Positions 1 through 48,424 of a DNA stretch of 64,000 bases are shown here, piece by piece; within the stretch, counting starts at the first letter, position 1, and each line of letters starts with the position of its first letter. The position numbers and the translations under genes were made by a program. The stretch is from Bolinopsis microptera (Eukaryota; Ctenophora; Tentaculata; Lobata; Bolinopsidae). The notes beneath the pieces are model-generated. The model saw only the letters and a program-made list of their open reading frames with translations. It was not told the DNA's origin and searched no databases. The stretch lies in the NCBI RefSeq assembly GCF_026151205.1, contig NC_087081.1:4459246-4523245 (forward strand), given 5' to 3'.

Positions 1-1602
1 GTGGGGGTAACTAGATCTCCAGTTCTGACAAACCACTCCTTTCTGCGTCTTGGAACGGTAACCTGAAATCAGAGTAAGTGTTGATATTGCTGTGAGGGTA
101 ACTAGATCTCCAGTTCTGACAAACCACTCCTTTCTGCGTCTTGGAACGGTAACCTGAAATCAGAGTAAGTGTTGATATTGCTGTGAGGGTAACTAGATCT
201 CCAGTTCTGACAAACCACTCCTTTCTGCGTCTTGGAACGGTAACCTGAAATCAGAGTAAGTGTTGATATTGCTGTGACTCTGTGAGGGTAGCTAGATAGT
301 AGATATCTAGTTCTGACAAACCACTCCTTTCTGCGTCTTGGAACGGTAACCTGAAATCAGAGTAAGTGTTGATATTGCTGTGACTCTGTGAGGGTAGCTA
401 GATATTTAGTTCTGACAAACCACTCCTTTCTGCGTCTTGGAACGGTAACCTGAAATCAGAGTAAGTGTTGATATTGCTGTGACTCTGTGAGGGTAGCTAG
501 ATATTTAGTTCTGACAAACCACTCCTTTCTGCGTCTTGGAACGGTAACCTGAAATCAGAGTAAGTGTTGATATTGCTGTGAGGGTAACTAGATCTCCAGT
601 TCTGACAAACCACTCCTTTCTGCGTCTTGGAACGGTAACCTGAAATCAGAGTAAGTGTTGATATTGCTGTGAGGGTAACTAGATCTCCAGTTCTGACAAA
701 CCACTCCTTTCTGCGTCTTGGAACGGTAACCTGAAATCAGAGTAAGTGTTGATATTGCTGTGACTCTGTGAGGGTAACTAGATCTCCAGTTCTGACAAAC
801 CACTCCTTTCTGCGTCTTGGAACGGTAACCTGAAATCAGAGTAAGTGTTGATATTGCTGTGACTCTGTGAGGGTAGCTAGATATTTAGTTCTGACAAACC
901 ACTCCTTTCTGCGTCTTGGAACGGTAACCTGAAATCAGAGTAAGTGTTGATATTGCTGTGACTCTGTGAGGGTAGCTAGATATTTAGTTCTGACAAACCA
1001 CTCCTTTCTGCGTCTTGGAACGGTAACCTGAAATCAGAGTAAGTGTTGATATTGCTGTGACTCTGTGAGGGTAGCTAGATATTTAGTTCTGACAAACCAC
1101 TCCTTTCTGCGTCTTGGAACGGTAACCTGAAATCAGAGTAAGTGTTGATATTGCTGTGACTCTGTGAGGGTAGCTAGATATTTAGTTCTGACAAACCACT
1201 CCTTTCTGCGTCTTGGAACGGTAACCTGAAATCAGAGTAAGTGTTGATATTGCTGTGAGGGTAACTAGATCTCCAGTTCTGACAAACCACTCCTTTCTGC
1301 GTCTTGGAACGGTAACCTGAAATCAGAGTAAGTGTTGATATTGCTGTGAGGGTAACTAGATCTCCAGTTCTGACAAACCACTCCTTTCTGCGTCTTGGAA
1401 CGGTAACCTGAAATCAGAGTAAGTGTTGATATTGCTGTGACTCTGTGAGGGTAACTAGATATCCAGTTCTGACAAACCACTCCTTTCTGCGTCTTGGAAC
1501 GGTAACCTGAAATCAGAGTAAGTGTTGATATTGCTGTGAGGGTAACTAGATCTCCAGTTCTGACAAACCACTCCTTTCTGCGTCTTGGAACGGTAACCTG
1601 AA
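1..1602 (-). repeat. Minisatellite made of a kringle exon start plus its splice acceptor, 17 copies
   Basis: There are seventeen units of 91 or 100 bp; the longer form has an extra ACTCTGTGA-type insert. Read on the minus strand each unit has an AT/pyrimidine-rich tract ending TCTGATTTCAG, a good 3' splice site, then about 58 bp coding YRSKTQKGVVCQNWRSSYPH. This matches the early part of a kringle domain (Y-R-x-SKT-x-G-x-x-CQ-x-W-x-S-x-x-PH). Several units have TAA after CQN, so the array is not one reading frame. The intact rest of the exon would lie to the left, outside the window. I infer local amplification of an intron-exon junction. The kringle match rests on family knowledge and was not searched. 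Confidence 0.75.
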
Positions 1603-1868
1603 ATTAAACGTCCAAATTTCGTAATAACGTGGGATTTAAGACATGATTGTTTGTTGCCCGGACGGTGAAGAAACTGAGAAATGAGTACAAGGAAGATTGT
1701 TGGTTCGATCCATAAGTTGTTTCAAGGTTTAATTAAAAGATTCAAATGAAAAAATGTTTAACTGTAGTACCTGTATAATTATACAACGTGATATTATTAT
1801 CAGTGCATTGTGTACAACACCAACTACACCGATCAATTGCCAAGCTGCGAAACATTTATTTATTATTA
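1603..1868. other. Spacer and 3' flank of the Kazal gene
   Basis: No exon is visible. On the minus strand AATAAA-type hexamers (plus strand TTTATTTATT near 1855-1864) lie just past the stop codon of the minus-strand gene and are a likely poly(A) signal. Confidence 0.5.
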
Positions 1869-3707
1869 TCACTTCGAGATGGCAGGGCCTACCCTACCTG
1901 TGTAATACAACCCTTTTTCATTGTAGCACATCACGTTAGTAACCACTGGTCTGATAGAGTAGAAAGAGCCCCGTCCTAGCCCACTAATCTTAGGGTACTG
2001 CCGACTATCTGTAACATCAGTCCTGGTGGTCCCCTCGTTCAGCCGGATCTTACTCCCTCCGTACCTGGTCCCACTGAAGATATACCAGTCACCTCTGTTA
2101 ACCTTGAACGAGCTTATCTTGCCTCTCAGGTTGCTCGCTAGCTGAGTCCTCTTGTCGTAGATCACTGATGTGCTGCCGCTGAAGCTCTTTCCTGTAGCAA
2201 TGGTGATTTCAGGTCCTTCACAGTCTTGAAGATCGGTTGCTTTGTCCGTGTAGGTGATGCTGTTCTCCGGACACTGCACACAGGACACTGAACTCTCTGT
2301 ATCTTGGTACGTGTCGTAGGGACAGCTTGTGCAGGATGTCTGGTTCTGCTTGTTCTGGTAGGTCCCTAAAGGACACGCAACACACGTGACCCGCCCGTTA
2401 ACGATCACCACCTTACTGCCAGGATCACATGACGTGAAGTGACATTCAGAGCTGGAGATGCTGCCTTGACTGTCGGTAGTCATCTTATCCGGACACTTGC
2501 TGCAGGATAGACCACCATCTGTTTCTCTGTAATAACCTTTAGCACACTTTTGACATATTTTCGCTCCTGTTTGAGGTTGGTAAGTTCCCCTCGGACAAGT
2601 GTAGCAGAACCTCCTCCCCAGCTCTATCTGGTAGGTTCCAGCATCACACTTCTGACAGGATGTAGCTCCGGTGACATTGTTATAGGTCCCCTCACCACAC
2701 ATTCTGCAGGCTGGTGACCCGACAGTGTTCATGTAAGTACCTGGGTGACAGGATGTGCACTGGAGAGATCCTTTAGAATTACTAAACGTTCCCACTGGAC
2801 AGGACTCACAAGCAGTAACCCCACTAGAGTTGGAGAAGGTGCCCATAACACACCCCTCGCACATGGTGCCATCAGTGTAGTTGCCCGCACCACACGTGCT
2901 ACAGGAAGCAGACCCCACTGCACTAGTCCAGGTACCAGCTGAGCAGGAAGTGCAGGGAGCTTTACCTGTAGCGGAGTAATGTCCGGCTACACAATCAGAG
3001 AGACACTGTGAGCTGCTAGTAGCTCCTGCATCTACAGTGTCAGTACCGTTAGGACAGGACACACAGATAGAGGCACCAGGTGCGGGCTGGTAGGAGTCTC
3101 TAGGACACTGATCACAAGACATACTGCCTGTACTGTTAGTGAACTCTCCTGGTCCGCACTGTCTGCAGGGTCCGTACTGTCCGTCGTTTGAATAGTGTCC
3201 AGTTGGGCACGCTCCTGTGCAGTTCCCATTCCAGTACACATAGCTAGCTACTTTAGACCTGTAGTCAGACTCAGTCATCATGCTGAAATCAACTCCGTCA
3301 TCAAAGCTGATAATACCCTCTCCACACATCTTCTTAGCCATGGCACAACTACTGTTGAACTCAGTTAGGGATGAGTCACAGACTGTGATGGCTCCGCTCA
3401 CAGTGGTACAGTTAGGACAGTTCCCACCCCCTCCATCATTACTGCAGGGACCATCATTAGTCTTGTATTGTGACACTATGATGGAAACAGGCAGCGAGTT
3501 TATGTCAGTGCCATCTCCGAATGTGATAGTTTGCTCCTCACAAAGAGCGATAAGAAGTTCACACTCGCTAGTGTAAGTGACACCATCCAGACCACAGACA
3601 TCACCAGGAGTACCTGTCCAGGTGCTGCAGTCCGGGCAGGACAAGGAGGAGGAGGTGAGGAGAAGGAGAAGGAGGAGGGGTGGCCAGAGGGGCTGAGAAT
3701 GAGTCAT
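1869..3707 (-). CDS. Secreted Kazal / Cys-rich repeat / beta-gamma-crystallin-like protein
   Basis: One uninterrupted 612-residue frame, probably a secreted extracellular protein. Residues 1-23 are a signal peptide (MTHSQPLWPP then seven Leu). A Kazal-like module follows (about 24-70) with the classic core VCGLDGVTYTSECEL, and a degenerate second one (about 96-150, CPNCTTVSG to SSCAMAKKMC). From about 165 to 495 run seven to eight Cys-rich repeats of about 45 residues of the GCC2/GCC3 (ephrin-receptor-like) type, of the form CxxGTYxxxxGxxxCxxCxxG. The last 115 residues look like a beta/gamma-crystallin module (RGDWYIFSGTRYGGSKIRL, then GRGSFYSI). Several NxS/T sites support secretion. The lack of introns is odd beside its intron-rich neighbours and could mean a retrocopy, but the frame is intact. 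A protease-inhibitor role is possible from the Kazal core but not shown. Confidence 0.85.
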   Translation of the reverse strand: MTHSQPLWPPLLLLLLLTSSSLSCPDCSTWTGTPGDVCGLDGVTYTSECELLIALCEEQTITFGDGTDINSLPVSIIVSQYKTNDGPCSNDGGGGNCPNCTTVSGAITVCDSSLTEFNSSCAMAKKMCGEGIISFDDGVDFSMMTESDYRSKVASYVYWNGNCTGACPTGHYSNDGQYGPCRQCGPGEFTNSTGSMSCDQCPRDSYQPAPGASICVSCPNGTDTVDAGATSSSQCLSDCVAGHYSATGKAPCTSCSAGTWTSAVGSASCSTCGAGNYTDGTMCEGCVMGTFSNSSGVTACESCPVGTFSNSKGSLQCTSCHPGTYMNTVGSPACRMCGEGTYNNVTGATSCQKCDAGTYQIELGRRFCYTCPRGTYQPQTGAKICQKCAKGYYRETDGGLSCSKCPDKMTTDSQGSISSSECHFTSCDPGSKVVIVNGRVTCVACPLGTYQNKQNQTSCTSCPYDTYQDTESSVSCVQCPENSITYTDKATDLQDCEGPEITIATGKSFSGSTSVIYDKRTQLASNLRGKISSFKVNRGDWYIFSGTRYGGSKIRLNEGTTRTDVTDSRQYPKISGLGRGSFYSIRPVVTNVMCYNEKGLYYTGRVGPAISK

Positions 3708-4632
3708 GAGGGTGTTTGCTATTGTTCTTAAGCTGAATGTGAGAGTTTAGGTTAACCTTAAAATGTCAATATTTTCATATCTTTTATAGTTGTATAGTTA
3801 TACGTGTGGCAGAAAAGCAGATCTCTTTTTTCAAAAGCAAAGTTATATGGAAGTTGAAGAAATATTTCAATTTTATAAGCGTCGTTATTAACGTCAAAAC
3901 AAAGCTGATAAGATTGAAACTTTTTTTTTCAAAATTCATATTATAGTCAATAATCGGAAATGAAAAACTTCAGTCACCGCAGTCACACTGTTTGACTGTT
4001 GAACAACCAACATAAGATACAGAGTGTGGCACCAAACCAAGAACCAATGTGTTCTCATCGAAATGGACAAGATAAGCTGCACATCTAGTTCATGAGAAAT
4101 AAAATGCAACTTGAGCCTATCCTGACTGAAATCAGTCAGAGGGTACAGGAAACATTTGTCCGAGATAATAATTATAAGAGATAAGAATCAGGTCATTGCA
4201 TGAGACAATTTATACCGTACCTTCGCACCGTGTTATGCATTACGTGACTACGCTTAGTCGGTCATATTATGGGGGGGGGGGGGGGGGGGGGGGGGGGGGA
4301 GGGTTGGGGGGAGGGGAGGGGGGGGAGGGGGGAATCATAGGTGTTAAAAATATGGACTGTTATAAATATGGTTCTTTGGCCCGAAATGGAGCAAATTAGA
4401 CTCCTATAATATTACCGACTCAGGTAAATTTTATGCAAATTTAGCCGTTAAGAGTTTAAGGGTGACGTAATCTGCAAAATATACAAAAGTCGATTTTTGC
4501 ATTTGAACTGCTTTGTGAGTAAACACAAAGTTCACCCTTATCTGTAAACATTTTGAAACAATGACGTAAACACTAAGCAGTTAACCCAAACTCCAGTGAA
4601 ACTTTACTGAAACTGACCTCATACCTCCTCAG
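3708..4632. other. Divergent intergenic region with a poly-G tract
   Basis: This lies between the minus-strand Kazal gene and the plus-strand Cys-rich gene. Promoters and the first exon(s) of the plus-strand gene may be here, but I could not find an ATG exon ending in the required phase. A run of about 29 G at 4271-4299, followed by interrupted G runs to about 4331, is a strong G-quadruplex candidate. Confidence 0.5.
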
Positions 4633-7600
4633 ATACCTGCTTAGTTAGCGATGTGGAGTATTACAAAGGAGAGACCTTCGGTTCAACATGCAACAGGTAA
4701 CACACAGAACTTAGCAATGCTAATGCTAATAGCTGTATGCGCTAAGTTAGCGTATAGAGCTATAAGTATTTTATTGGTAGTACGCTTAGATAAAGCATCA
4801 AGTATGATCAGTCAGCTGATAAATTGTCGAATTAAAATAGAGTCACGACTTGTCTTCCACCTTTCAACATTAACGTAACTAAGTGATAGCAGAGAACGCA
4901 CATCTAATAAAGCAAATTTAGAAATAACAATTAACCTCGTTTTTCACCTCATTTAACTCGTATTTAACTTCTTATTTTCCTAGATGCACGTGCTACTTAT
5001 ACAGTACAGTATATGTGGACTGTGTGAGGACCCCTGATTGTAAACACATGACCACACCAGCTCCTCTCCCTCCAACCACACCCCCTCCAGTCAGACTCAG
5101 GGTTAAATCTAGTGAGTACCCCCAACCACACCCCCTCCAGTCAGACTCAGGGTTAAATCTAGTGAGTACCCCCAACCACACCCCCTCCAGTCAGACTCAG
5201 GGTTAAATCTAGTGAGTACCCCCAACCACACCCACTCCAGTCAGACTCAGGGTTAAATCTAGTGAGTACCCCCAACCACACCCCCTCCAGTCAGACTCAG
5301 GGTTAAATCTAGTGAGTACCCCCAACCACACCCCCTCCAGTCAGACTCAGGGTTAAATCTAGTGAGTACCCCCCACCACACCCCCTCCAGTCAGACTCAG
5401 GGTTAAATCTAGTGAGTACCCCCAACCACACCCCCTCCAGTCAGACTCAGGGTTAAATCTAGTGAGTTATATCCCCAACCATACCCCCTCCAGTCAGACT
5501 CAGGGTTAAATCTAGTGAGTACCCCCAACCACACCCCCTCCAGTCAGACTCAGGGTTAAATCTAGTGAGTACCCCCAACCACACCCCCTCCAGTCAGACT
5601 CAGGGTTAAATCTAGTGAGTACCCCCAACCACACCCCCTCCAGTCAGACTCAGGGTTAAATCTAGTGAGTACCCCCAACCACACCCCCTCCAGTCAGACT
5701 CAGGGTTAAATCTAGCGAGTACCCCCAACCACACCCCCTCCAGTCAGACTCAGGGTTAAATCTAGTGAGTACCTCCAACCACACCCCTCCAGTCAGACTC
5801 AGGGTTAAATCTAGTGAGTACCCCCAACCACACCCCCTCCAGTCAGACTCAGGGTTAAATCTAGTGAGTACCCCCAACCACACCCCCTCCAGTCAGACTC
5901 AGGGTTAAATCTAGTGAGTACCTCCAACCACACCCCCTCCAGTCAGACTCTGGGTTAAATCTAGTGAGTACCCCCAACCACACCCCCTCCAGTCAGACTC
6001 TGGGTTAAATCTAGTGAATACCCCCAACCACACCCCCTCCAGTCAGACTCAGGGTTAAATCTAGTGAGTACCTCCAACCACACCCCCTCCAGTCAGACTC
6101 AGGGTTAAATCTAGTGAATACCCCCAACCACACCCCCTCCAGTCAGACTCAGGGTTAAATCTAGTGAATACCCCCAACTAAACCCCCACCAGTCAGACTC
6201 AGGGTTAAATCTAGTGAGTTATACCCCCAACCACACCCCCTCCAGTCAGACTCAGGGTTAAATCTAGTGAGTACCCCCAACCACACCCCCTCCAGTCAGA
6301 CTCAGGGTTAAATCTAGTGAGTACCCCCAACCACACCCCCTCCAGTCAGACTCAGGGTTAAATCTAGCGAGTACCCCCAACCACACCCCCTCCAGTCAGA
6401 CTCAGGGTTAAATCTAGTGAGTACCTCCAACCACACCCCTCCAGTCAGACTCAGGGTTAAATCTAGTGAGTACCCCCAACCACACCCCCTCCAGTCAGAC
6501 TCAGGGTTAAATCTAGTGAGTACCCCCAACCACACCCCCTCCAGTCAGACTCAGGGTTAAATCTAGTGAGTACCCCCAACCACACCCCCTCCAGTCAGAC
6601 CCAGGGTTAAATCTAGTGAGTACCCCCCAACCACACCCCCTCCAGTCAGACTCAGGGTTAAATCTAGTGAGTACCCCCAACCACACCCCCTCCAGTCAGA
6701 CTCAGGGTTAAATCTAGTGAGTACCCCCAACCACACCCCCTCCAGTCAGACTCAGGGTTAAATCTAGTGAGTACCCCCAACCACACCCCCTCCAGTCAGA
6801 CCCAGGGTTAAATCTAGTGAGTACCCCCCAACCACACCCCCTCCAGTCAGACTCAGGGTTAAATCTAGTGAGTACCTCCAACCACACCCCTCCAGTCAGA
6901 CTCAGGGTTAAATCTAGTGAGTACCCCCAACCACACCCCCTCCAGTCAGACTCAGGGTTAAATCTAGTGAGTACCCCCAACCACACCCCCTCCAGTCAGA
7001 CTCAGGGTTAAATCTAGTGAGTACCCCCAACCACACCCCCTCCAGTCAGACCCAGGGTTAAATCTAGTGAGTACCCCCCAACCACACCCCCTCCAGTCAG
7101 ACTCAGGGTTAAATCTAGTGAGTACCCCCAACCACACCCCCTCCAGTCAGACTCAGGGTTAAATCTAGCTAGTATACGCTCAGAGTATTTCAAAGAATGC
7201 TCCAGTACTAGAACATACCACTGGTATAATTATTGCACATATACCATTACATTTACATTCCTTACAAGTTTTAGTAGCAATTATACTTCAGAGTGTCACG
7301 GAGGAGTAAGGTTCCTGGATTGTTCAACTCCTTGTGAGAGGGAATGTGGGTCTCGTGACTCAGACTGCAGACGTCACTGTTCCCAGGTTGGCTTGAATAA
7401 CCGATCAGGGGAAGGGATGCTTAAGTAGTAGTAGTAAAATGAATTAAATTAAGTAACGGTGAATAAATCAAAGGAGGCATGAAGAATATGGCGAAAGATT
7501 TCATTGTAACCAGCCAGTTACAGCAGTCGAAAGTACAATTTGAATTATAACTACAGCAGGGTGTCATTATTAACTGTTCTCAGTTTAAATGTGGGTTATG

Positions 7601-7985: not shown

Positions 7986-9179
7986 ACAAATTATACCCTT
8001 ATACAGAGTTTAATTACTTACCATTCGGAGAATCGATCTCTCAAATCAGAACAGTGCCGATACCAAACTCTCACTACCTAAGACTCGAAGACAATTTTAC
8101 TACGACACATAATTTGCTGGTGGATTCAACATTTTTAGAAGCCGAATTCTTCTTGCTCCTTAGCTATGTAACATGTCAATCAGACTCAGAGACGAAAGTA
8201 AATTTTGCTTGCTGGACATTATTACTTTCAAAATGTGTTCTTGGGTTTAATTCATGGGTTTGTCTCAATGTTTATTTCATTTTTACGTATTATAGATACA
8301 TCTTTATTTGAATTCGAATTACTATTAAAATAAAAAAATAAAAAAACAAAAGTTTTGGTATTATTCCAACTCGTCAGAAAATAAAGTAAATATTTCTATA
8401 TTATCATTATTATATTATATTATACATGTACACACATTGAAATACAGATTCATTTTGAATCTAGCCAATTCGCATGATCATTTTAATAGTTTTGTCATCT
8501 GACTCTGAATTCTGAATTTGCTGAGTAAAAAAATACATTTTGCTAATTTTGTCACTTTATATTTAATCATCATTCGAAGAGTTGAAATGGTGTGTCCTAT
8601 AGTTTTTGGCAACGTTCCATCTGATTATACTTGAACTTCTGTTACCAAGGTTACTACGTGTTCTCTTATCTTTCTCTCCGCAAACTAATTACACTGTTTG
8701 CTGAACCCTTCATATTGAAATACCACTGTTTTCTCATAATCAACCAAGTAAAATACTTCCTTTCAGCCTGAAGATCGTCTCTTCTGGTTTCCATAGTTAC
8801 ACTACTTGTTACCATAGTTACACTACTAGTTACCATAGTTACACTACTAGTTACCATAGTAACACTACTAGTGAGTTAGTGAGTTTACTTCTGGTTACCA
8901 GATGAGTTAGTGGCAAGGTTCTCTCCCACAGATTTGGGATGTCGGCTGCTACTGTTGTTGTTACTGTTGTCAGATTCAGTGGTTGTCATGGTGACTTTGC
9001 AACCCAGTGTGCTGGTTATTGGCTGGATTATTGAAGACCTGGAGTAGTTGAATGTTTATTATTTATTTATTGTTTGTTAAGATAAACATCCATTATATTA
9101 TACTCCTTACCGCTTTCTTACTTTATTGATATTAAATCGGAGGAAGGAAATCAATATCTTGTCTTTATAAATTGCAAAC
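7986..9179. other. Convergent intergenic region
   Basis: AT-rich sequence between two 3' ends. I see no exon. Four copies of a 21-bp X-box-like unit (ACTAGTTACCATAGTTACAC) lie at about 8797-8872, the same unit as in the introns of the neighbouring GPCR. Confidence 0.5.
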
Positions 9180-12100
9180 TCACCAAACTTTAGACTTGAT
9201 GATAAGGATTAACTTGAGGTAAGCTCTTCTGAAGAAAGGGTTCACGATGCCGTAAAGTACCGGATTCACGGCACTCCCACTGAGCAGTAACCAGTGGAAC
9301 GCTATAACAAATTCTGCAGGGTTTTAACATTTAACATACTAGTATTACATTTGTTAACATACTATTATACATGACGTGTTAACATACTGTTGTCACGTGA
9401 TCCACACATTACCATATAAGGCATGGTTGTCACGTGATCCACACGTTACCATGGTAACCGTTTACTGACCTGGTCCAATGGTAATGAGAGAGCCGTCAAT
9501 AAAGTGCAGAAACCCAACTACTGTTATTGGAACTAGGCAGGACATCATGACACCTGCAGAATGATTGCTTTATAAATATTAATATATTTATACTTTTATA
9601 TAATATTAATATATTATATATTATGTTAGAGCAACTTCACATACATTTCTTGACTAGAAGAGTGTGTAACTAGTAGTGTAACCATGGTAACTAGTAGCTG
9701 TAACCATGGTAACTAGTAGTGTGTCCCACTGCTGGACACATTGGAAATTATTACAGTGTGATTCACAGTTATCATAGAGTTATAGTATTGATGAATAACG
9801 GACTAACCAATAATTACTAAAACAGTAACAGTATTGCTCTTGTTCTGCCGTTTTTTCATTAACATAGAATCAGATGCTGGTCTAGACAAATCCCCTGCGG
9901 CACGTGTAGTTGAGCGCATAAAACTTGCACGTGCAGTCTTCTCGTTTGCACGTGCACAGTTTTTCTGGACCAGGTTAGAGGTGGAGTTGGGAGATGTTCT
10001 GGGTATTTCCAGGTCAACACGGACTTTGTTGCAGTCACTAACCGTGTTTCTGCGGTGACTAGAGGATTCTAGTGCTTTTACTAAAGCCTGAAAATAGAGG
10101 ATTCTAGTGTTTTTACTAAAGCCTGAAAATAGAGGATTCTAGTGCTTTTACTAAAGCCTGAAAATAGAGGATTCTAGTGCTTTTACTATAAAAGCCTGAA
10201 AGTAGAAGAAATGGTGATTTACAGAAAGTGTAGTGGTTGTGGTTGTTTATAGTATCACGACGTCTTGCATAATGACGATAAAACGTAATTTTTATTGAAA
10301 AGCAGTAATTTAATCACGCTTAAAAATATGAACCATGGATTTAAACTTTTAGATTTTCCTCTTCTCAATAACACTTACTTCATCTTTCTTAGAAATAGAC
10401 TTGGCGATTGTGAAGATCTTGACATAGCAAATGGTTATCATGAGTAACGGAATTGGCACAAATATCACCGAATACGTCAAACAATACACCTGAAAAACTG
10501 TGTCATTTTTTAACTGTGTCATTTTAAATCAAAATCTCCTAATTTTACAAACGCTAATTAATATTTTAAGTCGGTATTTTTTTAAAGTTCACAAAAAGTT
10601 TTTTTGATGTGACTGAATCGGTAATTCAGTATGTTTTTAAAAGTTCTATTCGTCACACTTTGGTCTGTCCAAAAAAAATGATGAAATGTCCTAAAATACT
10701 TACTAAGATACCCGAAGATACACAAAAACGTAAAATACCTGAAAATACACTAAAATACCTGAAAATACCTGAAAATACTCACTAAAATACACTAAAACAC
10801 CTAAATATACTCACTAAAATACACTAAAATACCTGAAAATACACTAAAATATCTGAAAATACACTAAAATACCTAAAAATACCTGAAAATACTCACTAAA
10901 ATACACTAAAATATCTGAAAATACACTAAAATACCTGTCCGTAAAGTTCCTGAGGGCAGATGAGTCCACAACTGTAGGACCAGGTCGAATAGTTGAATTC
11001 TAGTCCCTGGTAGCTGAAGAGAGGTGGAGAGTTGCACAGCCCTGCTACCACCCAGATACCAACTGAAATATAGTACTTATGTACATCAACGAGAGTAACT
11101 AGTAGTGTAACTATGGTTAACTAGTAGTGTAACTATGGTAACTAGTAGTGTAACTATGGTAACTAGTAGTGTAACTATGGTAACTAGTAGTGTAACTATG
11201 GTAACTAGTAGTGTAACTATGGTAACTAGTAGTGTAACTATGGTAACTAGTAGTGTTACTATGGTAACTAGTAGTGTAACTATGTTAACTAGTAGTGTAA
11301 CTATGGTAACTAGTAGTGTAACTATGGTAACTAGTAGTGTAACTATGGTGACTAGTAGTGTAACTGTGGTAACTAGTAGTGTAACTATGGTAACTAGTAG
11401 TGTTACTATGGTAACTAGTAGTGTAACTATGGTAACTAGTAGTGTAACTATGGTAACTAGTAGTGTAACTATGGTAACTAGTAGTGTAACTATGGTAACT
11501 AGTAGTGTAACTATCAGGGGTGTAGGAAGCGGGGGGGCAGGGGGCCGAGGCCGTCGCCCCCATGAAATCTGGGCAAGGGGCCAAAAAGGGCCAACTTTTA
11601 AATTTAGGTTTCTAAAAATTTTACCGAAAATTTTTTGAGTCACAAATTTTTTAAAGTCGCAAATTTTCAAAGTCAAAAATTTTCAAAAGTAGTTTCAAGT
11701 TTTCTTGGAAACTACTTTTGTTCATATTTCATGCTACCCTGATCATTATGAGCCGAAAATATTATTTTCGGTTTTTGAAGTTCGATGTACGATTTTGGAC
11801 TACCTTACTCGGGAATATTATAACCGGGATAAAGTGGTGGGTTTTGGAAGATTCCACCATATTTTTCCCGGTCAAAAATTTTACCAGTCATAAAAAACCC
11901 GCCGACTCAGATTATGGGGTTCCAAGGGGGTGGTGATCATCATATTTTACCTGAAGTCTCATATGTGCTAGAGAAAACTTTTGAAGCAGTGGATGGAGGG
12001 CTGTAACTTTATTGGCGGTTGCTACCATAATTTCGTTATAAAAATCACAATTTGGTTATAGAAATCAGATTTCAGGGTGGACCGTGATTCTCACTTCTCT

Positions 12101-15100
12101 TGCCCATGAATCAGTGAATCGTAGAGAAGAAAACAATTTATATGTTATAGAAGAAAAAGAAAATAATAATAATATATAATATATATTATAATAATAATGT
12201 CTCTAAAGATTGATCGCTTCTCGTGTGCAGTGTGTAGACTAAAGAAAGAGGGAGTTTTTCCCGTTAAAGTAACTTGTGGCCACATCCCGCTAGAAGTGAG
12301 TAAACTGTGCCACTATTTCATGGTCCACGGTGGATTGATTACTGGAGCAGTTGAAGATGCAAAGCCAAGACGTTCCCCAATACCAAGCGGTGGGCAGGAA
12401 ATTAAGCTCCGGCTGACCTTCAGAGCAGTAGCCCCATTAGTGGACAAAATGAAAGTCTTGTTAAGACAACAATACAACTTCGAATTTGACGGTCAGCAGC
12501 TCAGGGGGATATCAATAATAATAATGGCGGGGACATTAGCGATAATGAGAATGAGAATACGCTTTAATGAAGATTTGACTTATTATTGCTTAGATTTATT
12601 TTCCTTTAAATAAGTAACAAAAACAGTAATTTCGGTTGAAAATTTGTTGACCTCTGAAAAAAAACTTGAAAGGTCGGCCACCGGTAAATACATGACCGGG
12701 ATAATTTGGCGGGTTTTGGGAAAGTCCGCCATATTTTTCCCGGTCATTAATTTTCCCAGTCATAAATTAACCCGCTATAATATTCCCGAGTAAGGTAGAC
12801 GGTTCCCCTTTTATTTATTATTTGTAATGCGATCTCGGAAGGCAGGCCTTCCCTTCGCAATACGAGCTCGGAAGCGGAAGCTCTGCTTTCAGAGGAACGT
12901 ATCGAGAATTTTCTAAGTCAAAATTTTTCAAAGTTTTTCTGGAAACTACTTTTGTTTATGTTTTATGCTACCCTGATCATTCTGAGCCGAAAATATTTGT
13001 TCGGTTTTCTGAATTCCGTACCTACATTCGGAAGGTTGTGGATGTGATTGGTTTCATATACTAATTATAGAAAACATGATATTTGGCCCACAGATTTAAA
13101 GGAAAATGCGCAATTTGATGCGGAGAACTGAAAAAAATCGCGATTTGTCGTGAGGCAAGGATTTGAAAAATCGCGATTTGTCGTGGCAAACGTGAAAAAT
13201 CGCGATACCTAAATTTCCTTTTGTCCTTACCCCGACAATTTTTCGAAATTTAGGCTTTGGCGCGAAGCAAATCATTCCTACACCCCTGGTAACTATGGTA
13301 ACTAGTAGTGTAACTGACCTATAAGTTTAGTGACTCTAGCCCAGGTAATGTTGCGGTGGTAATGTAGCGGGTACTGGACCATGTAGAACTTGTCTAAAGA
13401 GGAACAAGCCACTGTCCATACGCTGATCAGTAACATTGTGTTGTCCACAAACGCTGAAAAAGAGTCAGAGTTATATAATATGGTAACTAGTAGTGTAACT
13501 ATGGTAACTAATAGTGTAACTATGGTAACTAGTAGTGTAACTATGGTAACTATGGTAACTATACAGCTGATCAGTTATTGCATCTAGTTCAAGTTGTTTT
13601 TATTTATATACTTAATAATTTAATTGGTCAGCTTCATCCTAGTCTGGTTTAATCCAAGGACCAGTGTGTAAAGTCTTAATACAGACTGATTGTCTCTCAT
13701 AGTGTAACTATGGTAACTAGTAGTGTAACTATGGTAACTAGTAGTGTAACTATGGTAACTAATAGTGTAACTATGGTAACTAGTAGTTTAACTATGGTAA
13801 CTAGTAGTGTAACTATCGTAACTAGTAGTGTAACTATCGTAACTAGTAGTGTAACTATGGTAACTAGTAGTGTAACTATGGTAACTAGTAGTGTAACTAT
13901 GGTAACTAGTAGTGTAACTATGGTAACTAGTAGTGTAACTATCGTAACTAGTAGTGTAACTATCGTAACTAGTAGTGTAACTATCGTAACTAGTAGTGTA
14001 ACTATCGTAACTAGTAGTGTAACTATCGTAACTAGTAGTGTAACTATGGTAACTAGTAGTGTAACTATGGTAACTAGTAGTGTAACTATGGTAACTAGTA
14101 GTGTAACTATGGTAACTAGTAGTGTAACTATGGTAACTAGTAGTGTAACTATGGTAACTAGTAGTGTAACTATGGTAACTAGTAGTGTAACTATGGTAAC
14201 TAGTAGTGTAACTATGGTAACTAGTAGTGTAACTATGGTAACTAGTAGTGTAACTATGGTAACTATAGTAGTTTAACTATGGTAACTAGTAGTGTAACTA
14301 TGGTAACTAGTAGTGTAACTATCGTAACTAGTAGTGTAACTATCGTAACTAGTAGTGTAACTATCGTAACTAGTAGTGTAACTATGGTAACTAGTAGTGT
14401 AACTATGGTAACTAGTAGTGTAACTATGGTAACTAGTAGTGTAACTATGGTAACTAGTAGTGTAACTATGGTAACTAGTAGTGTAACTATGGTAACTAGT
14501 AGTGTAACTATGGTAACTAGTAGTGTAACTATCGTAACTAGTAGTGTAACTATCGTAACTAGTAGTGTAACTATGGTAACTAGTAGTGTAACTATGGTAA
14601 CTAGTAGTGTAACTATGGTAACTAGTAGTGTAACTATGGTAACTAGTAGTGTAACTATGGTAACTAGTAGTGTAACTATGGTAACTAGTAGTGTAACTAT
14701 GGTAACTAGTAGTGTAACTATGGTAACTAGTAGTGTAACTATGGTAACTATAGTAGTGTAACTATGGTAACTAGTAGTGTAAAGGTGTAACTATGGTAAC
14801 TAGTAGTGTTACCTGAGAAGTTGCAGAGGGTTTTACCCAGCAACCACTTGTTAGCCGCCACAGATATTACAGTTATAGGCATGTTCCACACTCCTACCAC
14901 AAAGTCTGACACGCTTAGGTTCATTAGGAAAGCGTTGCTTATACCTAGTGCCTGCGGGGGAGTCTGTTTTAGTTCCAATGGTATTGATAAAAGCCTTGTG
15001 ACGTCATCATCACAACTCGATGATGTCATCATTATTACTTGATGACGTCATCATCACAACTTCAATGGCATTCATAAAAGCCATGGCTATAAAACCTGTG

Positions 15101-15374: not shown

Positions 15375-15469
15375 TCTACTATTCTAGTGTGGATAATTTC
15401 ACGTGTCAGCAAAGAAAACTTCGAACGTTAGATACAACAAAAAACAAGTGAAGGTCTCTTCCGAACGTT

Positions 15470-15696: not shown

Positions 15697-15699
15697 CAA

Positions 15700-16680: not shown

Positions 16681-16682
16681 TT

Positions 16683-18430: not shown

Positions 18431-18439
18431 TTAAAGATT

Positions 18440-29249: not shown

Positions 29250-31610
29250 TCAGAACTGATTATATAAATGATTCTTTAACATTCGCTTGAAACAGTTGGT
29301 ATCAGTATCAGTAATACTTCTCAACATCAGCGGAAGAGAGTTCCATGCAACCGGTGCATGGCTTGAAAAACGTCTGTCATCAACTTTGGATCTTTTATTC
29401 TTTGGTATCTTGAGCATGAGATGGTCATCCGGTCTTTTCGACCTGGTCATGGTGTTTGAAAGCTCTATATCCACTACATCCATATCCAGTAGTGCTTTGA
29501 GGTAATCAGGTGCAGTACCGTGAACTGATTTGTGGGTTAAAAGACAAACTTTGAAGAAGATTCGTTGGTCTATAGGGAGTATGTGGGCCTTCTTATAGAA
29601 GGGAACCAAGTCCGTGGTCCTCTCTTCTATGTTGTAGATGAAACGAACTGCCCCATTAAGGGTTGATCTAAGTTTGTTCAATCTGGTCTTGGGTAGATTC
29701 ATGTTAAGAGAATTACAGTAGTCTAATTTAGATATGACCAGTTGTTTCACCAGCATCAATTTAATGCCTTCATCCAGGTAACGACCAATGGTTCTTAGGT
29801 TCATCATTGTCCAGCTGCATTTCCTTTTGACATTATTGATCTGTCTTTCCATATTTAGAGTTTCATCAAATTTGACACCCAGAATCTTCCAGCTGTCTCC
29901 TTTACACTCCGTAGGCAGAATTTCAGTGCTTCCAAATTGCAGTCTGACACTGAGTTCACACTTTTTTAGAACATGGCTCTTTCCTAACACCAGTAGTTCT
30001 GTCTTTGTTTCGTTCAGTTTCATGTAGTTGTTCACCATCCATGCTTTTATCTCTGCAAGACATTTGTTTGTTCTGTCTTGGACATCAATGAACTGTACCA
30101 CACGGTTTGGTTTAAATGAGATGTACAGTTGAGAATCATCTGCATAGAGCTGTATATCAAGACCATATTTGGCCGCATTTTTCTGGAGAGCTTTGATATA
30201 AAGGATGAAAAGAATAGGCCCCAAGAGTGATCCCTGGGGAACTCCAAACAGAAGCTCCAAGAAAGATGAAAGAGTATCATCAATCTTAACACAGAAGTGT
30301 CTTTTCTCAAGGTAGGACTTTATCCATTGCAGTGCACTTCCAGTAATTCCATAGTCCTTCATAAGCTTTTCCAACAAGACTGTGTGGTCAATGGTATCAA
30401 ATGCTGCACTTAAGTCGAGAAGTACAACTATAACAACATTCCCAGCTTCAATTTCTTTGTTTAGATCATCACACATTCTAACAAGTAATGTTTCACAGCT
30501 ATGATTAGGGCGATATCCAGATTGGACTTCTGAGTAAAGGCTATGGTTAGTTAGATGGACATTAAGCTGGTTTAGTACAATTCTCTCTAGGATCTTAGAG
30601 AAGGCAGAGAGGTTAGACACTGGTCGATAGTTACTGAGAATATCAACATCAGCATTTTCCTTCTTCAAAGTCGGCTTGATGACTGCTTTCTTCATATCTG
30701 AGGGAAAAACTCCAGTCTTCAAGGATGAGTTCAAGACGTGGAGTATAAAAGGTGTTAGTTCATCAACACAGTTTTTTAAGAGAAATGCTGGGATCGGATC
30801 CAAGCAGCAGAACTTGTTGGACATCTTTGATACCAGGTCTTTGAGTTCATCAGCTGTTATCTCAGAGAAATTATCAAAGATGCAGTCTTTATCAAGAACA
30901 GGATCTTTGTCTTTGTCTTTGTCTTTGTCTTTGTCTTTGTCTTTGTCTTTGTCTTTGTCTTTGTCTTTGTCTTTGTCTTTGTCTTTGTCTTTGTCTTTGT
31001 CTTTGTCTTTGTCTTTGTCTTTGTCTTTGTCTTTGTCTTTGTCTTTGTCTTTGTCTTTGTTTACATCTTTGTCTTTGTCTTTGTCTTTGTTTATATCTTT
31101 GTCTTTGTCTTTGTCTTTGTCTTTGTCTTTGTCTTTGTCTTTGTCTTTGTCTTTGTCTTTGTCTTTGTCTTTGTCTTTGTCTTTGTCTTTGTCTTTGTCT
31201 TTGTCTTTGTCTTTGTCTTTGTCTTTGTCTTTGTCTTTGTCTTTGTCTTTTCCTTCCTTCTCAATGGCTTGTCTGATGGTTGCAACCTTTTCAGCGAAGA
31301 AATCTTTGAAATCTTCTGACAGTTTCACAGGATCCTTGTAGTTTGGAAGGTTTTGGGTGTCATTTCCTAAAAGCCTGTTGACTTTTTTGTACAACGCTTT
31401 AGTATCCCCTGAAGAGGACCTAAGAGAGGTTTTGTGGTGAGCGCATCTTTTGACAAACTCTAGTCGGGAAAACTCATCTCTTAGCTTAACATAATCCGAT
31501 CTCAGGTACTCAGATCTTGTACTGTCTATATAGTCTACTTTATCTTTTCTCCACGCACGTTCAGCAGTTCTTCTCTTTCGCCTGAGAATACGAATCGACG
31601 TTTCAGCCAT
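29250..31610 (-). CDS. LINE reverse transcriptase, open frame with Asp-Lys expansion
   Basis: A 786-residue frame. The N-terminal part (ILRRKRRTAERAW) is the linker that follows the endonuclease in CR1/Jockey-type LINEs. Residues about 120-240 are an almost pure Lys-Asp repeat. The RT core follows: NYRPVSNLSAFSKILERI, QSGYRPNHSCETLL, LLDLSAAFDTIDH, GVPQGSLLGPILF and the catalytic YADDSQLY; then a C-terminal part ending KRMLKNHLYNQF. Catalytic Asp residues are all present, so the copy is young even though it is truncated. Without its endonuclease it should not move alone. The Met used is simply the first after a stop. Confidence 0.85.
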   Translation of the reverse strand: MAETSIRILRRKRRTAERAWRKDKVDYIDSTRSEYLRSDYVKLRDEFSRLEFVKRCAHHKTSLRSSSGDTKALYKKVNRLLGNDTQNLPNYKDPVKLSEDFKDFFAEKVATIRQAIEKEGKDKDKDKDKDKDKDKDKDKDKDKDKDKDKDKDKDKDKDKDKDKDKDKDKDKDINKDKDKDKDVNKDKDKDKDKDKDKDKDKDKDKDKDKDKDKDKDKDKDKDKDKDKDKDKDKDKDPVLDKDCIFDNFSEITADELKDLVSKMSNKFCCLDPIPAFLLKNCVDELTPFILHVLNSSLKTGVFPSDMKKAVIKPTLKKENADVDILSNYRPVSNLSAFSKILERIVLNQLNVHLTNHSLYSEVQSGYRPNHSCETLLVRMCDDLNKEIEAGNVVIVVLLDLSAAFDTIDHTVLLEKLMKDYGITGSALQWIKSYLEKRHFCVKIDDTLSSFLELLFGVPQGSLLGPILFILYIKALQKNAAKYGLDIQLYADDSQLYISFKPNRVVQFIDVQDRTNKCLAEIKAWMVNNYMKLNETKTELLVLGKSHVLKKCELSVRLQFGSTEILPTECKGDSWKILGVKFDETLNMERQINNVKRKCSWTMMNLRTIGRYLDEGIKLMLVKQLVISKLDYCNSLNMNLPKTRLNKLRSTLNGAVRFIYNIEERTTDLVPFYKKAHILPIDQRIFFKVCLLTHKSVHGTAPDYLKALLDMDVVDIELSNTMTRSKRPDDHLMLKIPKNKRSKVDDRRFSSHAPVAWNSLPLMLRSITDTDTNCFKRMLKNHLYNQF
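30901..31252. repeat. Hexamer (TCTTTG)n inside the RT frame, about 58 copies
   Basis: Six-base repeat coding (KD)n on the minus strand, with two interrupted units (TTTACATC and TTTATATC, coding Val/Ile-Asn). The frame is kept on both sides. Confidence 0.95.
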
Positions 31611-31640
31611 AATGTTGGGCGGACTGACGTTTCCGAGTGG

Positions 31641-32725: not shown

Positions 32726-32734
32726 TGAATACAG

Positions 32735-33440: not shown

Positions 33441-33479
33441 TATAGCGTCCAATAAGGTAATACAAACTTCAACAAGTTT

Positions 33480-36093: not shown

Positions 36094-41031
<4,938 letters not shown>

Positions 41032-41035
41032 ACAG

Positions 41036-41180
41036 TGTCAGATGATGACGTCACACTGATGACGTCACGTTACTGTGATGACGTCACCTGTTTCTTTGTT
41101 TAAAGATGGCGCGTTGTAATGATGACGTCACGTGTTCTTTGTTTAAAGATGGCGCGTTGTAATGATGACGTCACGTTTTG
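41036..41180 (+). promoter_or_regulatory. CRE cluster in the Bsx 3' UTR
   Basis: TGACGTCA occurs five times right after the stop codon, mixed with two copies of TTTAAAGATGGCGCG (AAGATGGCG is a YY1-like core). It may be an enhancer or only a short repeat; function is inferred. Confidence 0.5.
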
Positions 41181-41312
41181 ATTTTGTGAAGGCAGCGCGT
41201 TACTGTGGGACTACCTCATAAGAAGTATTTAGATTGTAGCCACTGTTCAAAATGACTGCATCAGCTCGGTTACAGTTGTTAGGTTACAGTTGCTAGGTTA
41301 CAGTTGCTAGGT

Positions 41313-42200: not shown

Positions 42201-42204
42201 ATAG

Positions 42205-43190: not shown

Positions 43191-43344
43191 CATCATGTTC
43201 AGCATGTTTTAAAGCGCTGGACGTCTCATTAACTTCTGTCTGATGGTAGCTTGGTCTCTATAATGAATTAACCCTCATCACCCTGCCCCCTCTTACCCTC
43301 TTATTGGCTCATTAAATTGATTTTCAAAACATTGTGATTGCATT

Positions 43345-43580
43345 GGAGCAGACACGTGGGGGAGTCACGTGGTTAACAAGCTGTCACGTGACGACGCACG
43401 TGGGTGTGACACGTGCTCTTAGTCGAGTAATCATCGCCTCACGTGCGTGAGTAGCCATTTAATGGGTTCATTAATAAAAGCTTTGAAAACGTGTTGTTTG
43501 TATTAAAAATACGGTGGTGATACCACGTGCACAAGAGTGCAATCCATTAAAACGCACCCCATGTAACCAAGTCAGCACGT
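43345..43580. promoter_or_regulatory. E-box-rich stretch between homeobox genes
   Basis: About eight CACGTG or near-CACGTG words (ACACGTGG, GTCACGTGG, GTCACGTGAC, GCACGTGGG, ACACGTGC, CACGTGCGTG, CCACGTGC, GCACGTGC) in 240 bp, as upstream of Bsx. Likely regulatory, by inference. Confidence 0.4.
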
Positions 43581-43674
43581 GCTAAAATATACGCTAGATT
43601 TTGCACGGTTTACTGCTCTTCATTGATCTAATATTTTTCAAGTTTTTAGTAAACTCCCCGCAGTTGCTAGGTTA

Positions 43675-43722
43675 CAGTTGCTAGGTTACAGTTGCTAGGT
43701 TACAGTTGCTAGGTTACAGTTG
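43675..43722 (+). repeat. GTTGCTAGGTTACA run
   Basis: Four to five copies of the X-box-like word, intergenic. Confidence 0.7.
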
Positions 43723-44004
43723 CGAGTGTCACTACTGTTCGAGCTGTTTCTTCTAATTGTCTCTAATTAGTGGTTTCTGTAGGGTAGTTTTCCGAATTCT
43801 CAGATCGTTTACCTCTGATTAAATGATTCGCAACAATTTAGTATCCCCGAGAGATCATTAAAACCGGGCCGAAAACAATTTATTTCAAAATGAGGCCACG
43901 ATCAAAGATTGCTAGATTACAGTTGCTAGGTTACAGTTGCTAGATTAGGGGCCGTAGTTAACCTCGGGTGAGTTCAGATGACATAAAAACTTGACCTTGT
44001 TTAT

Positions 44005-44270
44005 ATAGTTTTTACAGTTTATATAGTGTTTACAGTTTATAAGTTTATATAGTGTTTACAGTTTATATAGTGTTTACAGTTTATATAGCGTTTACAGTTT
44101 ATATAGTGTTTACAATTTATATAGTGTTTATAGTTTATATAGTGTTTATAGTTTTTATAGTGTTTACAATTTATATAGTGTTTATAGTTTATATAGTGTT
44201 TATAGTTTTTATAGTGTTTATAGTTTATATAGTGTTTACAGTTTATATAGTGTTTACAGTTTATAAATAT
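44005..44270. repeat. 18-bp TTTATATAGTGTTTACAG array
   Basis: About 15 copies with small variants (TTTTTATAG, ACAATTTATA). Confidence 0.9.
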
Positions 44271-44686
44271 AAAGTTTGCAGATGAGACTAGACGGTTCGG
44301 TTCCTATCTATTAGTAGTAGTTTATTTGGGACTGGTCTGAGGTTTCTACTCAGACGGAGCATGGTAGTCATGGTTACGCATGGGTTTGCTAACCAACAAT
44401 AACCTCCTGAACATGATATAGAAACATATTATTAATAATCCTGCATATTACTGTCACTTATTTCTCATACTGTTAGATACGCATGTTGTCATGCTAACGC
44501 ATGTTGTCATGGTAACGCATGTTGTCATGGTAACGCATGCGCTTTCCTTCAATTTCCCTGTCATTTAACTGACAGTGTTATTGGTTGCTACATGTTGGGA
44601 GGTGGTTGCTATGGTAATTTAAGTGACAGCTCTATTGGCGGTTGCCTAGACAAACCATAGCAATAATTATCTCGATAAAGGAGCAA

Positions 44687-44792
44687 TGACGAGAGACACC
44701 TCGCTAGCTCGATGGCTGGAAATGTCTCTAAAAAATGCTGCCCTCATAAACGAGACAGACATTTCATTTGATCAGTCTTACCAAAGTTTTAG
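44687..44792 (+). CDS. Possible first exon, unknown gene
   Basis: ATG opens a 35-codon frame (MTRDTSLARWLEMSLKNAAL) ending at a GTAATT donor (TTTAG, GTAATTT). No later exon in matching phase was found. Could be a short upstream exon or chance. Confidence 0.15.
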
Positions 44793-45371
44793 GTAATTTA
44801 TCATTACTCTGAGGTAATCTACCATTACTCTGTCTTTGTATTGGCTGGTGGATCTCACTTTGCTGGAATATTCAAGTTTGATTGGCCTCCCTTCAGTCTA
44901 CACTTTTTATTTTGTTATTTTTATTGGTTTTTATGAAGATCCTTGCTGCTAAAAATTACGTTTAATTTGTGGAAATTAAAATTTTTGTGCCGTAAAAACG
45001 TCCAGATTTGTAACATTAGCGAAACCAAGGCCCGTCGGTGATTACAGTTGAGAACAACAGTAAATCTTTAGGTTTGCAGAAGTTTAGTTTGCAGATCTAG
45101 TTTGTCTAGACATTACTTTCAAATTTTATTGCACTCTTATTAGAATTATTTTATTGGCGACCATGCCTAGTGTAGACTTAAAGGAGTTTATGTTATAGTG
45201 AGATGATCTTTTAACTTAACTGGTCTATGTCTTAGTGTTGATCATGGTTTGAATTTGTTTACTTGGAAGTTGCAACGTTACAATCTTATTTGACATTCGT
45301 TTTTCCTATCGTAGACTCTATCGCTAATTGATCAACTTGGTTGCTGACGTTCAGTTTCAGGTTACCGATCA

Positions 45372-45715
45372 ATATTTCCTCGAGCATATGGAACCTGAAA
45401 TAGCTACTATTAGCATTATCCTCGAGCATATGGAACCTGAAATAGCTGCGATTAGCATTATCCTCGAGCATATGGAACCTGAAATAGCTACTATTAGCAT
45501 TATCCTCGAGCATTTGGAACCTGAAATAGCTGCTATTAGCATTATCCTCGAGCATATGGAACCTGAAATAGCTGCTATTAGCATTATCCTCGAGCATATG
45601 GAACCTGAAATAGCTGCTATTAGCATTATCCTCGAGCATATGGAACCTGAAATAGCTGCTATTAGCATTATCCTCGAGCATATGGAAGCTGAAATAGCTA
45701 CTATTAGCATTATCG
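45372..45715. repeat. 45-bp minisatellite, about 7-8 copies, upstream of the second homeobox gene
   Basis: The unit has CCTCGAGCATATGGAACCTG and AAATAGCTGCTATTAGCATT. As 45 bp is 15 codons, open frames arise on both strands by chance. It ends 150 bp before the ATG at 45866 and may lie in the 5' UTR or promoter. Each unit has a CATATG E-box. Confidence 0.9.
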
Positions 45716-45865
45716 AGACAAATTCAATTATCATGAGCAACCAGATTTTGTCGAAGTCACTGATATGTTTTTTTGATTATTATGCTATAACTAAAGATAT
45801 ATTGCGCGACTTACATTAGAACTATAAAAGTATAAAGCAATATACTAACTATAATACTATAAGCA

Positions 45866-48424
45866 ATGATCGCTACAGCCCATCCATTCTCGATAACCAA
45901 TATTCTGGAGGGTGACTCTCTTTCTAGCAGCGTGGAGAAATTGTCTCCACTCAACGTAGATACATCTGTAAGAAAAGGTAATTATTCAAGTTATTTACAT
46001 AACTTTATATAATAGAAATATAACAAGACAAAGTAATTATTCAAGTTATTTACATAACTTTATATAATAGAAATATAACAAGAAAAGATAATTATTCAAG
46101 TTATTTACATAACTTTATATAATAGAAATATAACAAGACAAAATAATTATTCAAGTTATTTACATAACTTTATATAATAGAAATATACCAAGGAAAAGTA
46201 ATTATTCAAGTTATTTACATAACTTTATATAATAGAAATATAATAAGAAAAGGTAAATATTTAAATTATTACATAACTTTATATAATAGAAATATAATAA
46301 GAAAAGGTATTTATTCAAATTATTTACTTTTTCAGTTTCGTGATTCTAATCTCTGTTCATGTTTGGTGTTACGTTTTTATCATAATTCATGCCGTAACAC
46401 TCGCCTGCGAACAACTGAAATATTTCCGCTTAATCGATTAAACAATATTCATATCATGTTTATAAGTAATATTATCAATATTATTAATTATAGGTATATC
46501 ACTAACTGGACCTCTGTTGCCAATAGCTACTTACGCAGAGCCCTCTCTTAGCAACCGCCTCACCTCGCTTAGCAAAACTACAAGATCACTTAGCAACATG
46601 ATGGCATGTTCTAGCCAAACAACTTCGCCAAACAACAGAATTACGTCACCTAGCAACCTCGTGATGTCACCTAGCAGCCTCGTGACGTCACCTATTTACC
46701 ACATGACATCACCTAGCAACCTCGTGACGTCACCTAGCAACCTCGTGACGTCACCTATTTACCACATAACGTCACCAGAACAACAGACAGTTCACCCAAA
46801 TATGGTAGTTCAGGAGAGTGACACGTGGAGACAGAGTGATGCTATCAACTCTTTTACTGAGGTAACCATGACAATATATTTGAAGTAACCAGAGCAACAT
46901 ATCTCCTAAATTATATATCTTTTGGCGTTATTTGTTATCTTGCACAGGACACAGGTAGATATCTGTTTTAATGATTTATTTTCATCATCTCTGTTCTAAA
47001 CGTAATTGCAATTTCTGCAGGAGTTGATGAAGAATTTTGGTACAAGTTTGATGAAGTTGAGTGGATTATCAGATCCAGTGTCCTTGGTGACGGATCAAGG
47101 CGCACCTTTACCTTGGCCTATACTTATTGCTTCTAGTCTCAGCAAACATGGTAACAAAAGGAAAAATTACGAAATTTAGTTTATAATTTTAACATGGTGA
47201 AGTTTTAACTTTTTAAATTTGAATGCGTTTTAGTCGTGTCCTGCGATATCTTCTCATAGCAGGGTTGCAAGATGTGAAGGATAGAAATGGCCCAGAAGTA
47301 TATATATCTATATACTATGTACATGTACTATGTACATATACTATGTACATGTTATGTATATATCAAGACTCTATGAATATAACACAAGACTTGGTCACAA
47401 TGGTAACCATGGTAACATGGTAACACAGGACTTACCATAACATGTCACAATGGCAGGCATGATAAAAACAAGAAAGAGAAGAACGACTTTCTCGCGCGAA
47501 CAGCTGGTGAACATGGAGAGAACGTTCCAGAAGCACCCTTATCTAACTCCAACACAGCGAGCAGACCTGGCTAAGTCCCTCAACTTGGCTCAGATACAAG
47601 TCCAGGTAAGTACCTCAACTTGGCTCAGATACAAGTCCAGGTAAGTCCCTCAACTTGGCTCAGATACAAGTCCAGGTAAGTCCTTCAACTTGGCTCAGAT
47701 ACAAGTCAAGGTAAGTTCCTCAACTTGGCTCAGATACAAGTCCAGGTAAGTCCCTCAACTTGGCTCAGCTACAAGTCCAGGTAAGTCCCTCAACTTGGCT
47801 CAGATACAAGTCCAGGTAAGTCCCTCAACTTGGCTCAGATACAAGTCCAGGTAAGTCCCTCAACTTGGCTCAGCTACAAGTCCAGGTAAGTCCCTCAACT
47901 TGGCTCAGATACAAGTCCAGGTAAGTCCCTCAACTTGACTCAGATACAAGTCCAGGTAAGTCCCTCAACTTGGCTCAGATACAAGTTCAGGTAAGTCCCT
48001 CAACTTGGCTCAGATACAAGTTCAGGTAAGTCCCTCAACTTGGCTCAGCTACAAGTCCAGGTAAGTCCCTCACCTTGGCTCAGATACAAGTCCAGGTAAG
48101 TCCCTCAACTTGGCTCAGATACAAGTCCAGGTAAGTCCCTCAACTTGGCTCAGATACAAGTCCAGGTAAGTCCCTCAACTTGGCTCAGATACAAGTTCAG
48201 GTAAGTCCCTCAACTTGGCTCAGATACAAGTCCAGGTAAGTCCCTCAACTTGGCTCAGATACAAGTCCAGGTAAGTCCCTCAACTTGGCTCAGATCCAAG
48301 TCCAGGTAAGTCCCTCTATTTGGCCTATTTTTTATCACAGTCAATAAACAAATATAAATTATATTCTTACTCATAGGTTTGGTTCCAAAACAGAAGAGCT
48401 AAGTGCAAGAAAACTGGAGTTTGA
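45866..48424 (+). CDS. Homeobox transcription factor, PRD-like, class uncertain
   Basis: Five exons in phase: 45866-45977, 46494-46861, 47021-47150, 47457-47605, 48377-48424; about 268 residues. The N-terminus has HPFSITNILEG, an EH1-type repressor motif (Groucho-binding in other proteins). Exon 2 is Ser/Thr/Pro-rich with repeats of TSPSNLV; exon 3 ends GAPLPWPILIASSLSKHG. The homeodomain lies at the very C-terminus: RKRRTTFSREQLVNMERTFQ, then PYLTPTQRADLAKSLNLAQI and VWFQNRRAKCKK, stopping two residues later. The intron falls between homeodomain residues 46 and 47, as in many PRD-class genes; residue 50 is Gln. Helix 1-2 (Met16, YLTPTQRADLA) does not match a family I know. Two introns carry splice-site minisatellites. 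It lies 5 kb downstream of Bsx on the same strand. Confidence 0.88.
45978..46335 (+). repeat. About 60-bp repeat carrying the exon 1 donor, about 6 copies
   Basis: The true donor is AAGAAAAG, GTAATTATTC at 45978. The intron then repeats TCAAGTTATTTACATAAC, TTTATATAATAGAAATATAA and AAGAAAAGGTAATTATT-like junctions. Some copies keep AAAAG-GT (46254, 46308); others have lost G or T (GATAATT, AAATAATT). Confidence 0.8.
47590..48310 (+). repeat. 35-bp repeat carrying the exon 4 donor, 21 GTAAGT sites
   Basis: The unit CCCTCAACTTGGCTCAGATA, CAAGTCCAG, GTAAGT is the end of homeodomain exon 4 (SLNLAQIQVQ) plus its donor. From the first donor at 47606 to the last at 48306 there are exactly 20 further 35-bp steps, almost every one with CAG-GTAAGT intact. 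As 35 bp is not a multiple of three, any outer donor breaks the homeodomain frame. Confidence 0.95.

Follow-up and report, generated by a model that had tools for sequence, protein, structure and literature searches.

Tandem repeats that carry exon edges and their splice sites in the genome of the ctenophore Bolinopsis microptera

In a 64-kb stretch of the Bolinopsis microptera genome (C10:4459246-4523245, hereafter the window; the genome comprises 264.65 Mb in 232 contigs), minisatellites were found whose repeat unit consists of the edge of an exon together with its own splice site. Exonic and intronic bases both lie within these arrays, and the splice signals are repeated in the copies. Such tandem-repeated exon edges are real, are widespread in this genome, and belong to a known kind, represented by the "mirages" of lancelets. 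They are probably mirage-type minisatellites, in which a neutral birth persists even when it takes in an exon edge by chance, the extra copies being spliced out. Because extra copies can be removed in this way, the arrays would be harmless by-products of very active repeat-making.

Tandem arrays were located with Tandem Repeats Finder (TRF) in three blocks, namely a 104-kb block around the window, selected on account of the finding itself, and two 80-kb blocks from other chromosomes. Exon edges were predicted with a purpose-written, two-strand exon-chain gene finder, which was self-trained without supervision on the three blocks (264 kb, of which 254 kb are not N) and gave tandem-repeat bases zero coding credit. 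An array was counted as lying on an edge if it covered at least 5 bases on each side and passed a coding-score rule. The gene finder put 13 edges inside arrays, and four failed these rules: 10935 and 46861, with just 3 and 4 exonic bases in the array, and both edges of 56379-56406, which has a negative coding score.

TRF recovered all six arrays named in the original prediction, close to the positions first given for them, and five of the six exon edges proposed there are supported by the gene finder or by a domain rebuilt over the junction (Table 1). The gene finder called acceptors 10087 (GPCR array) and 40330 (Bsx-like gene) and donors 45977 and 47605, and it added a further window case at donor 40731. 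Splicing of exon 47457-47605 to 48377 from the exon-proximal donor restores homeodomain positions 1-57 (E 4.4e-23); we take the intron at homeodomain position 46/47 to be old. For the kringle acceptor, joining exon 3732..1898 to an array copy restores kringle positions 1-32 (E 1.6e-6), with a score of 28.8 bits, the whole-domain cut-off being 34.3; the remaining kringle exon lies in a masked stretch. The Bsx-like homeodomain (E 3.5e-24) starts downstream of the 40076-40358 array and thus supports the exon without testing the edge at 40330; outside the array this exon has a low coding score, 1.7, yet it contains the start of the homeodomain. The sixth edge, at the VWC/TIL array, was rejected as a proven case, since the gene finder called no exon at this donor and the downstream TIL match (E 0.042) is below the cut-off.

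Table 1. Arrays on proposed exon edges, and associated features, in the window (a slash in a donor marks the exon end)
Position	Strand	Unit (bp)	Copies	Content	Source
1..1604	-	91/99	16.7	Acceptor (TCTGATTTCAG) and first ~60-70 bp of kringle coding sequence in each copy; extends to first base of window, masked beyond	TRF
1898..3732	-			Exon with donor ACAG/GTAGGG feeding the kringle acceptor array; coding score 194.8	Gene finder
5072..7168	+	50	41.8	Donor-like TCTA/GTGAGT in most copies	TRF
10060..10206	-	35	4.1	Acceptor TTTTTCAG and 28 exonic bases of exon 9808-10087	
40076..40358	+	48	5.9	Acceptor and start of Bsx-like homeobox exon 40330-40463	
40724..40828	+	31		Spans donor 40731 of next Bsx-like exon; 8 exonic bases	Gene finder
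45970..46327	+	55	6.5	Donor 45977 through nearly the whole following intron-like stretch	
47572..48324	+	35	21.5	Donor CAG/GTAAGT at homeodomain position 46/47; 34 of the 35 unit bases belong to the exon	

Read-through beyond the exon is halted by a stop 1 to 98 bases further along in nine donor arrays with a readable frame (47605, a lectin-like gene, L030, L050, L051, L055, L063, L064, and L065), so that those copies must be spliced out. Left out of this count were the 45977 exon, two lectin rows in other frames (not coding), L049, L062, L066, and edges 40731, -5513, and -10821. Unit length was a multiple of 3 in 4 of 17 edge arrays, a hand-made list that includes the unsupported 5072 array and omits 40731, L049, L062, and L066, compared with 55 of 167 noncoding arrays. 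Four arrays lie wholly within predicted exons (period mod 3 = 0, 2, 1, and 2), too few to inform.

These observations suggest the following course of events. Tandem duplications some 10-100 bp long would arise often in this genome, and a duplication starting in an exon and ending in the adjoining intron, or the reverse, would copy the splice site along. The spliceosome would use the exon-proximal donor or acceptor, which would keep the original exon connected with the remainder of the gene, while the remaining copies would sit within the intron and be removed by splicing. With inner copies leaving along with the intron, births at exon edges would be about as well tolerated as births in introns, and hence nearly neutral; births wholly inside coding sequence would mostly be lost. 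Copy number would afterwards expand as in any minisatellite. A filtered repeat process from which exon-edge duplications survive had been proposed at the outset, and it fits the exon-proximal rebuilding of the homeodomain and the kringle start, the untranslatable copies in nine donor arrays, the unit lengths, and an edge capture that is about what array density predicts.

Edge arrays occur at acceptors (10087, 40330, and kringle) and at donors (45977, 47605, L030, L051, and L055), and several of these lie beyond the window. The gene finder placed three more at most 11 kb to the left of it and one in the C13 block. One of the three is a 42-bp, 18-copy donor array in a lectin-like gene, whose lectin match reaches just E 0.093. 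A repeat-blind set was formed from 20 expected exon edges (17 donors) obtained by homeodomain search and chosen solely from where the domain boundaries fall; all 20 went through TRF, and six were inspected by eye. At the homeodomain donor of locus L030, a unit of 34 bp (15 exonic and 19 intronic bases) is present in 5 intact copies. At the similar locus L029, a GTACATT repeat begins right at the donor and breaks the first intron copy, and repeat remnants follow it; copy number differs between these two homeobox loci (one haplotype). L039 has an 11-bp array starting exactly at the donor. No array spans the expected edge at the 17 remaining edges of the set.

An exon-blind set was obtained from threefold occurrences of CAGGTAAGT or AGGTAAGT within a limited distance of one another. 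It holds 18 arrays among the matches listed out of 450, 565, and 299 hits, these array counts being lower bounds. Sixteen of the 18 had the 5' flank needed for scoring; the window's own array and L061, whose array exceeds the fetched piece, were left out. Nine of the 16 score as exon ends and seven do not, at a cut of 6.5 that was placed after seeing a gap between 2.5 and 6.8. Of 74 predicted donors 96% pass this cut, compared with 8.8% of 1030 background AGGT sites. The nine include a WDR62-like WD40 exon (E 1e-4), an exon with an Ig-like look that has no Pfam match, and L049, in which the array starts exactly at the donor. In L053, one of the other seven, the array stops at a TAF2 exon's acceptor instead (E 1.9e-7). 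L066 (88-189) contains a putative 66-bp exon flanked by repeats on both sides, an acceptor repeat of three copies and a donor array. Pfam gave no match for the exons of L055, L063, L064, and L065, and weak matches only for the lectin-like exon and a discoidin-like one (E 0.064). A 37-bp unit in L053 (742-1111) and L067 (1-60) starts with GTAAGT and ends with TTATTTCAG, each copy resembling a complete tiny intron.

The original prediction held that the placement of these arrays is hard to see as chance. We compared it with a neutral null in which each array grows from a one-unit seed whose random position avoids coding interiors. When an array had to cover 5 or more bases on each side, 9 of 178 arrays lay on edges compared with 4.94 expected (p 0.057), and over eight null settings the total p ranged from 0.002 to 0.102. 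The window block gave 8 edge arrays against 2.9 expected (p 0.007); it is an exceptionally repeat-rich region (26.7% tandem repeats by TRF, compared with 5.5% and 9.8% in the two other blocks). The other blocks gave 1 edge array against 1.24 expected and 0 against 0.78, or together 1 against 2.0; over the eight settings, the expectation without the window block was 0.6 to 3.1. The excess stems from the block selected for the finding, and the window count was rejected as proof of enrichment. When arrays were moved randomly, the mean number of false edge arrays per block was 1.08, 0.28, and 0.04, compared with 8, 1, and 0 seen. Donor-word arrays lay at exon ends in 9 of 16 cases, and single AGGTAAGT sites lay at predicted donors in 2 of 7 (Fisher p 0.37). 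Edge capture is of the order expected under neutrality. These counts do not establish that arrays fall on edges more often than by chance; they leave room for a true excess of some two-fold and show no large one.

Control words were searched alongside the donor words, nine-base controls at the spacing of the CAGGTAAGT search and eight-base controls matching the donor word in make-up, frequency, and spacing. Among nine-base controls, GTGCAAAGT gave 18 hits in 6 arrays (reversed, 136 hits) and CAGAATTGG gave 0 hits (reversed, 8); the reversed nine-base donor word also gave 0. Among eight-base controls, GAAGTTAG gave 163 hits in at least 8 arrays (reversed, 15) and GATTAGGA gave 48 hits in 4 arrays (reversed, 64). 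The donor word AGGTAAGT produced 565 triple hits, in 5 arrays among the matches listed, two of them very long, and its reverse produced 0; at wider spacing the counts were 299 and 1. As single sites the two are similarly common (7 for the donor word and 6 for its reverse). The donor word is ahead in hits via some very long arrays, and other words occur in arrays about as often, as far as this can be counted. One very long donor-word array (G000:C5:747936-751324) lies at an exon end and extends for 3.4 kb with a 47-bp unit; another (G000:C2:21866317-21873721) has clustered 34-bp units over 7.4 kb, with no exon seen at its 5' flank.

Several of these results weigh against neutral capture as a full account. 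The window block lies above the null in all eight settings (p 0.001-0.007), and for all blocks together one setting gives p 0.002. In the window block, 8 of 129 edges lie in arrays, compared with 1 of 197 in the other two (p 0.003), so the rate is uneven. The 9 of 16 donor-word arrays at exon ends exceed 0.29 (one-sided binomial p 0.02), and AGGTAAGT, with 565 triple hits, outnumbers each of five equally spaced control words (163, 64, 48, 15, and 0). Duplication could instead be targeted to splice sites: GTAAGT shares short matches with nearby exon sequence, and slippage or end-joining would prefer them. AAGT or TAAGT does occur inside the exon in 47572, L051, and L064, where the unit runs from (T)AAGT to the donor GT or G, the lead of AGGTAAGT in triple hits and the near-absence of hits for the similarly common reversed word point the same way, and the total excess reaches 3.9-fold in the strictest setting. 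We nevertheless regard targeting as unlikely. Hits count copies, not arrays, and the 5 donor arrays among the matches listed compare with at least 8 for GAAGTTAG, 4 for GATTAGGA, and 6 for GTGCAAAGT; the two other blocks have no clear excess; and by eye no such short match is seen in arrays 10060, 40076, L050, and L055. Should tandem duplication in this lineage nonetheless be drawn to splice donors, for example via short matches between GTAAGT and the exon, which we doubt, exon edges would act as nurseries for repeats, from which novel splice sites and introns could continually arise.

It had also been suggested that the arrays have a role, for example as decoy or buffering splice sites that tune splicing, and this found no support. 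Summed over seven arrays, 17 of 1210 cells in splice columns and 84 of 4695 elsewhere were mismatches, and in five of the seven the splice columns were no different from the rest. The kringle acceptor columns were better kept (p 0.003) and the donor columns of the 45970 array worse kept (p 0.004), two departures that do not suit simple neutrality; copies within an array are not independent, however, which makes these p values rough. On the whole, conservation is no higher in splice columns than in others. Perfect consensus donors in many copies of the homeobox array and the unusually clean kringle acceptor columns speak for a role, yet GT has been lost from several 45970 copies and, of the two similar homeobox loci, one keeps its donor copies intact and the other is interrupted by GTACATT, which leaves a role very improbable. 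We give as little credence to some arrays being coding repeats in elongated exons instead of spliced-out copies, since stops follow soon after the exon in nine donor arrays and 13 of the 17 listed units are not multiples of 3, although the 48-bp Bsx-like array keeps its reading frame, open across all copies, which makes coding use possible, and this one exception among the edge arrays may, judging from its frame, be coding.

The original prediction regarded such a class as undescribed, which is wrong. In lancelets, mirages are reported in Adh3, the globins BflGb6 and BflGb9, and TnC, with like repeats in PGBD5, and AG/GT signals recur in many copies while regular splicing is kept (PMC3087553, PMC3902484). 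Adh and TnC mirages are reported to yield no aberrant mRNAs (PMC3902484). The arrays described here likewise repeat AG/GT splice signals in their copies; they differ in reaching copy numbers of 21 and more, in being numerous genome-wide, and in being known from sequence alone. The literature searched, from which most subscription journals are absent, names mirages only for lancelets and in a few genes. Human CBS has a 31-bp variable number tandem repeat whose name, c.1444_1467+7, places it across an exon end, and the 844ins68 duplication of an intron-exon junction, where splicing strongly favours one site over the other (PMC2630376). There, too, the repeated or duplicated segment spans an exon-intron junction, but in a single human gene; an association with enzyme activity appears in the title of a work cited there. 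In the Rogers model of intron gain, outlined for potato RdRp and ATP2A1, the splice signals come from tandem duplicates, of which the additional one is spliced out (PMC4974935); a new intron is made there, whereas here only the edge of the homeodomain 46/47 intron is repeated. Variable minisatellites at exon-intron boundaries in human segmental duplications may form novel introns, but those internal tandem repeats lie in human paralogues and half are within coding sequence (PMC2812944). Here mirages are common across a minisatellite-rich genome and offer many natural cases for the proposal of intron gain and splice-site turnover from boundary repeats, and gene annotation in such genomes will be error-prone at repeated edges.

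Other repeats are present in the window. A dispersed 21-bp family (GTTACACTACTAGTTACCATA) occupies 8787-14782, in and near introns of the minus-strand GPCR gene; one unit, at donor 14812, begins an intron, and another lies four bases past donor 13318. A dispersed 14-bp family (GTTGCTAGGTTACA) occurs at 36442-36546, 39332-39458, 40724-40828, and 43661-43723, and a 1-kb query containing it gave 270 genome matches; among the matches listed, nearly all fall on that repeat. On the minus strand, 29250-31640 contains a LINE-like reverse transcriptase frame with a 58-copy hexanucleotide repeat, read as KDKD. A 253-bp unit at 55835-56686 (3.3 copies) has similar pieces near 11700 and 13000, which suggests a small mobile element.

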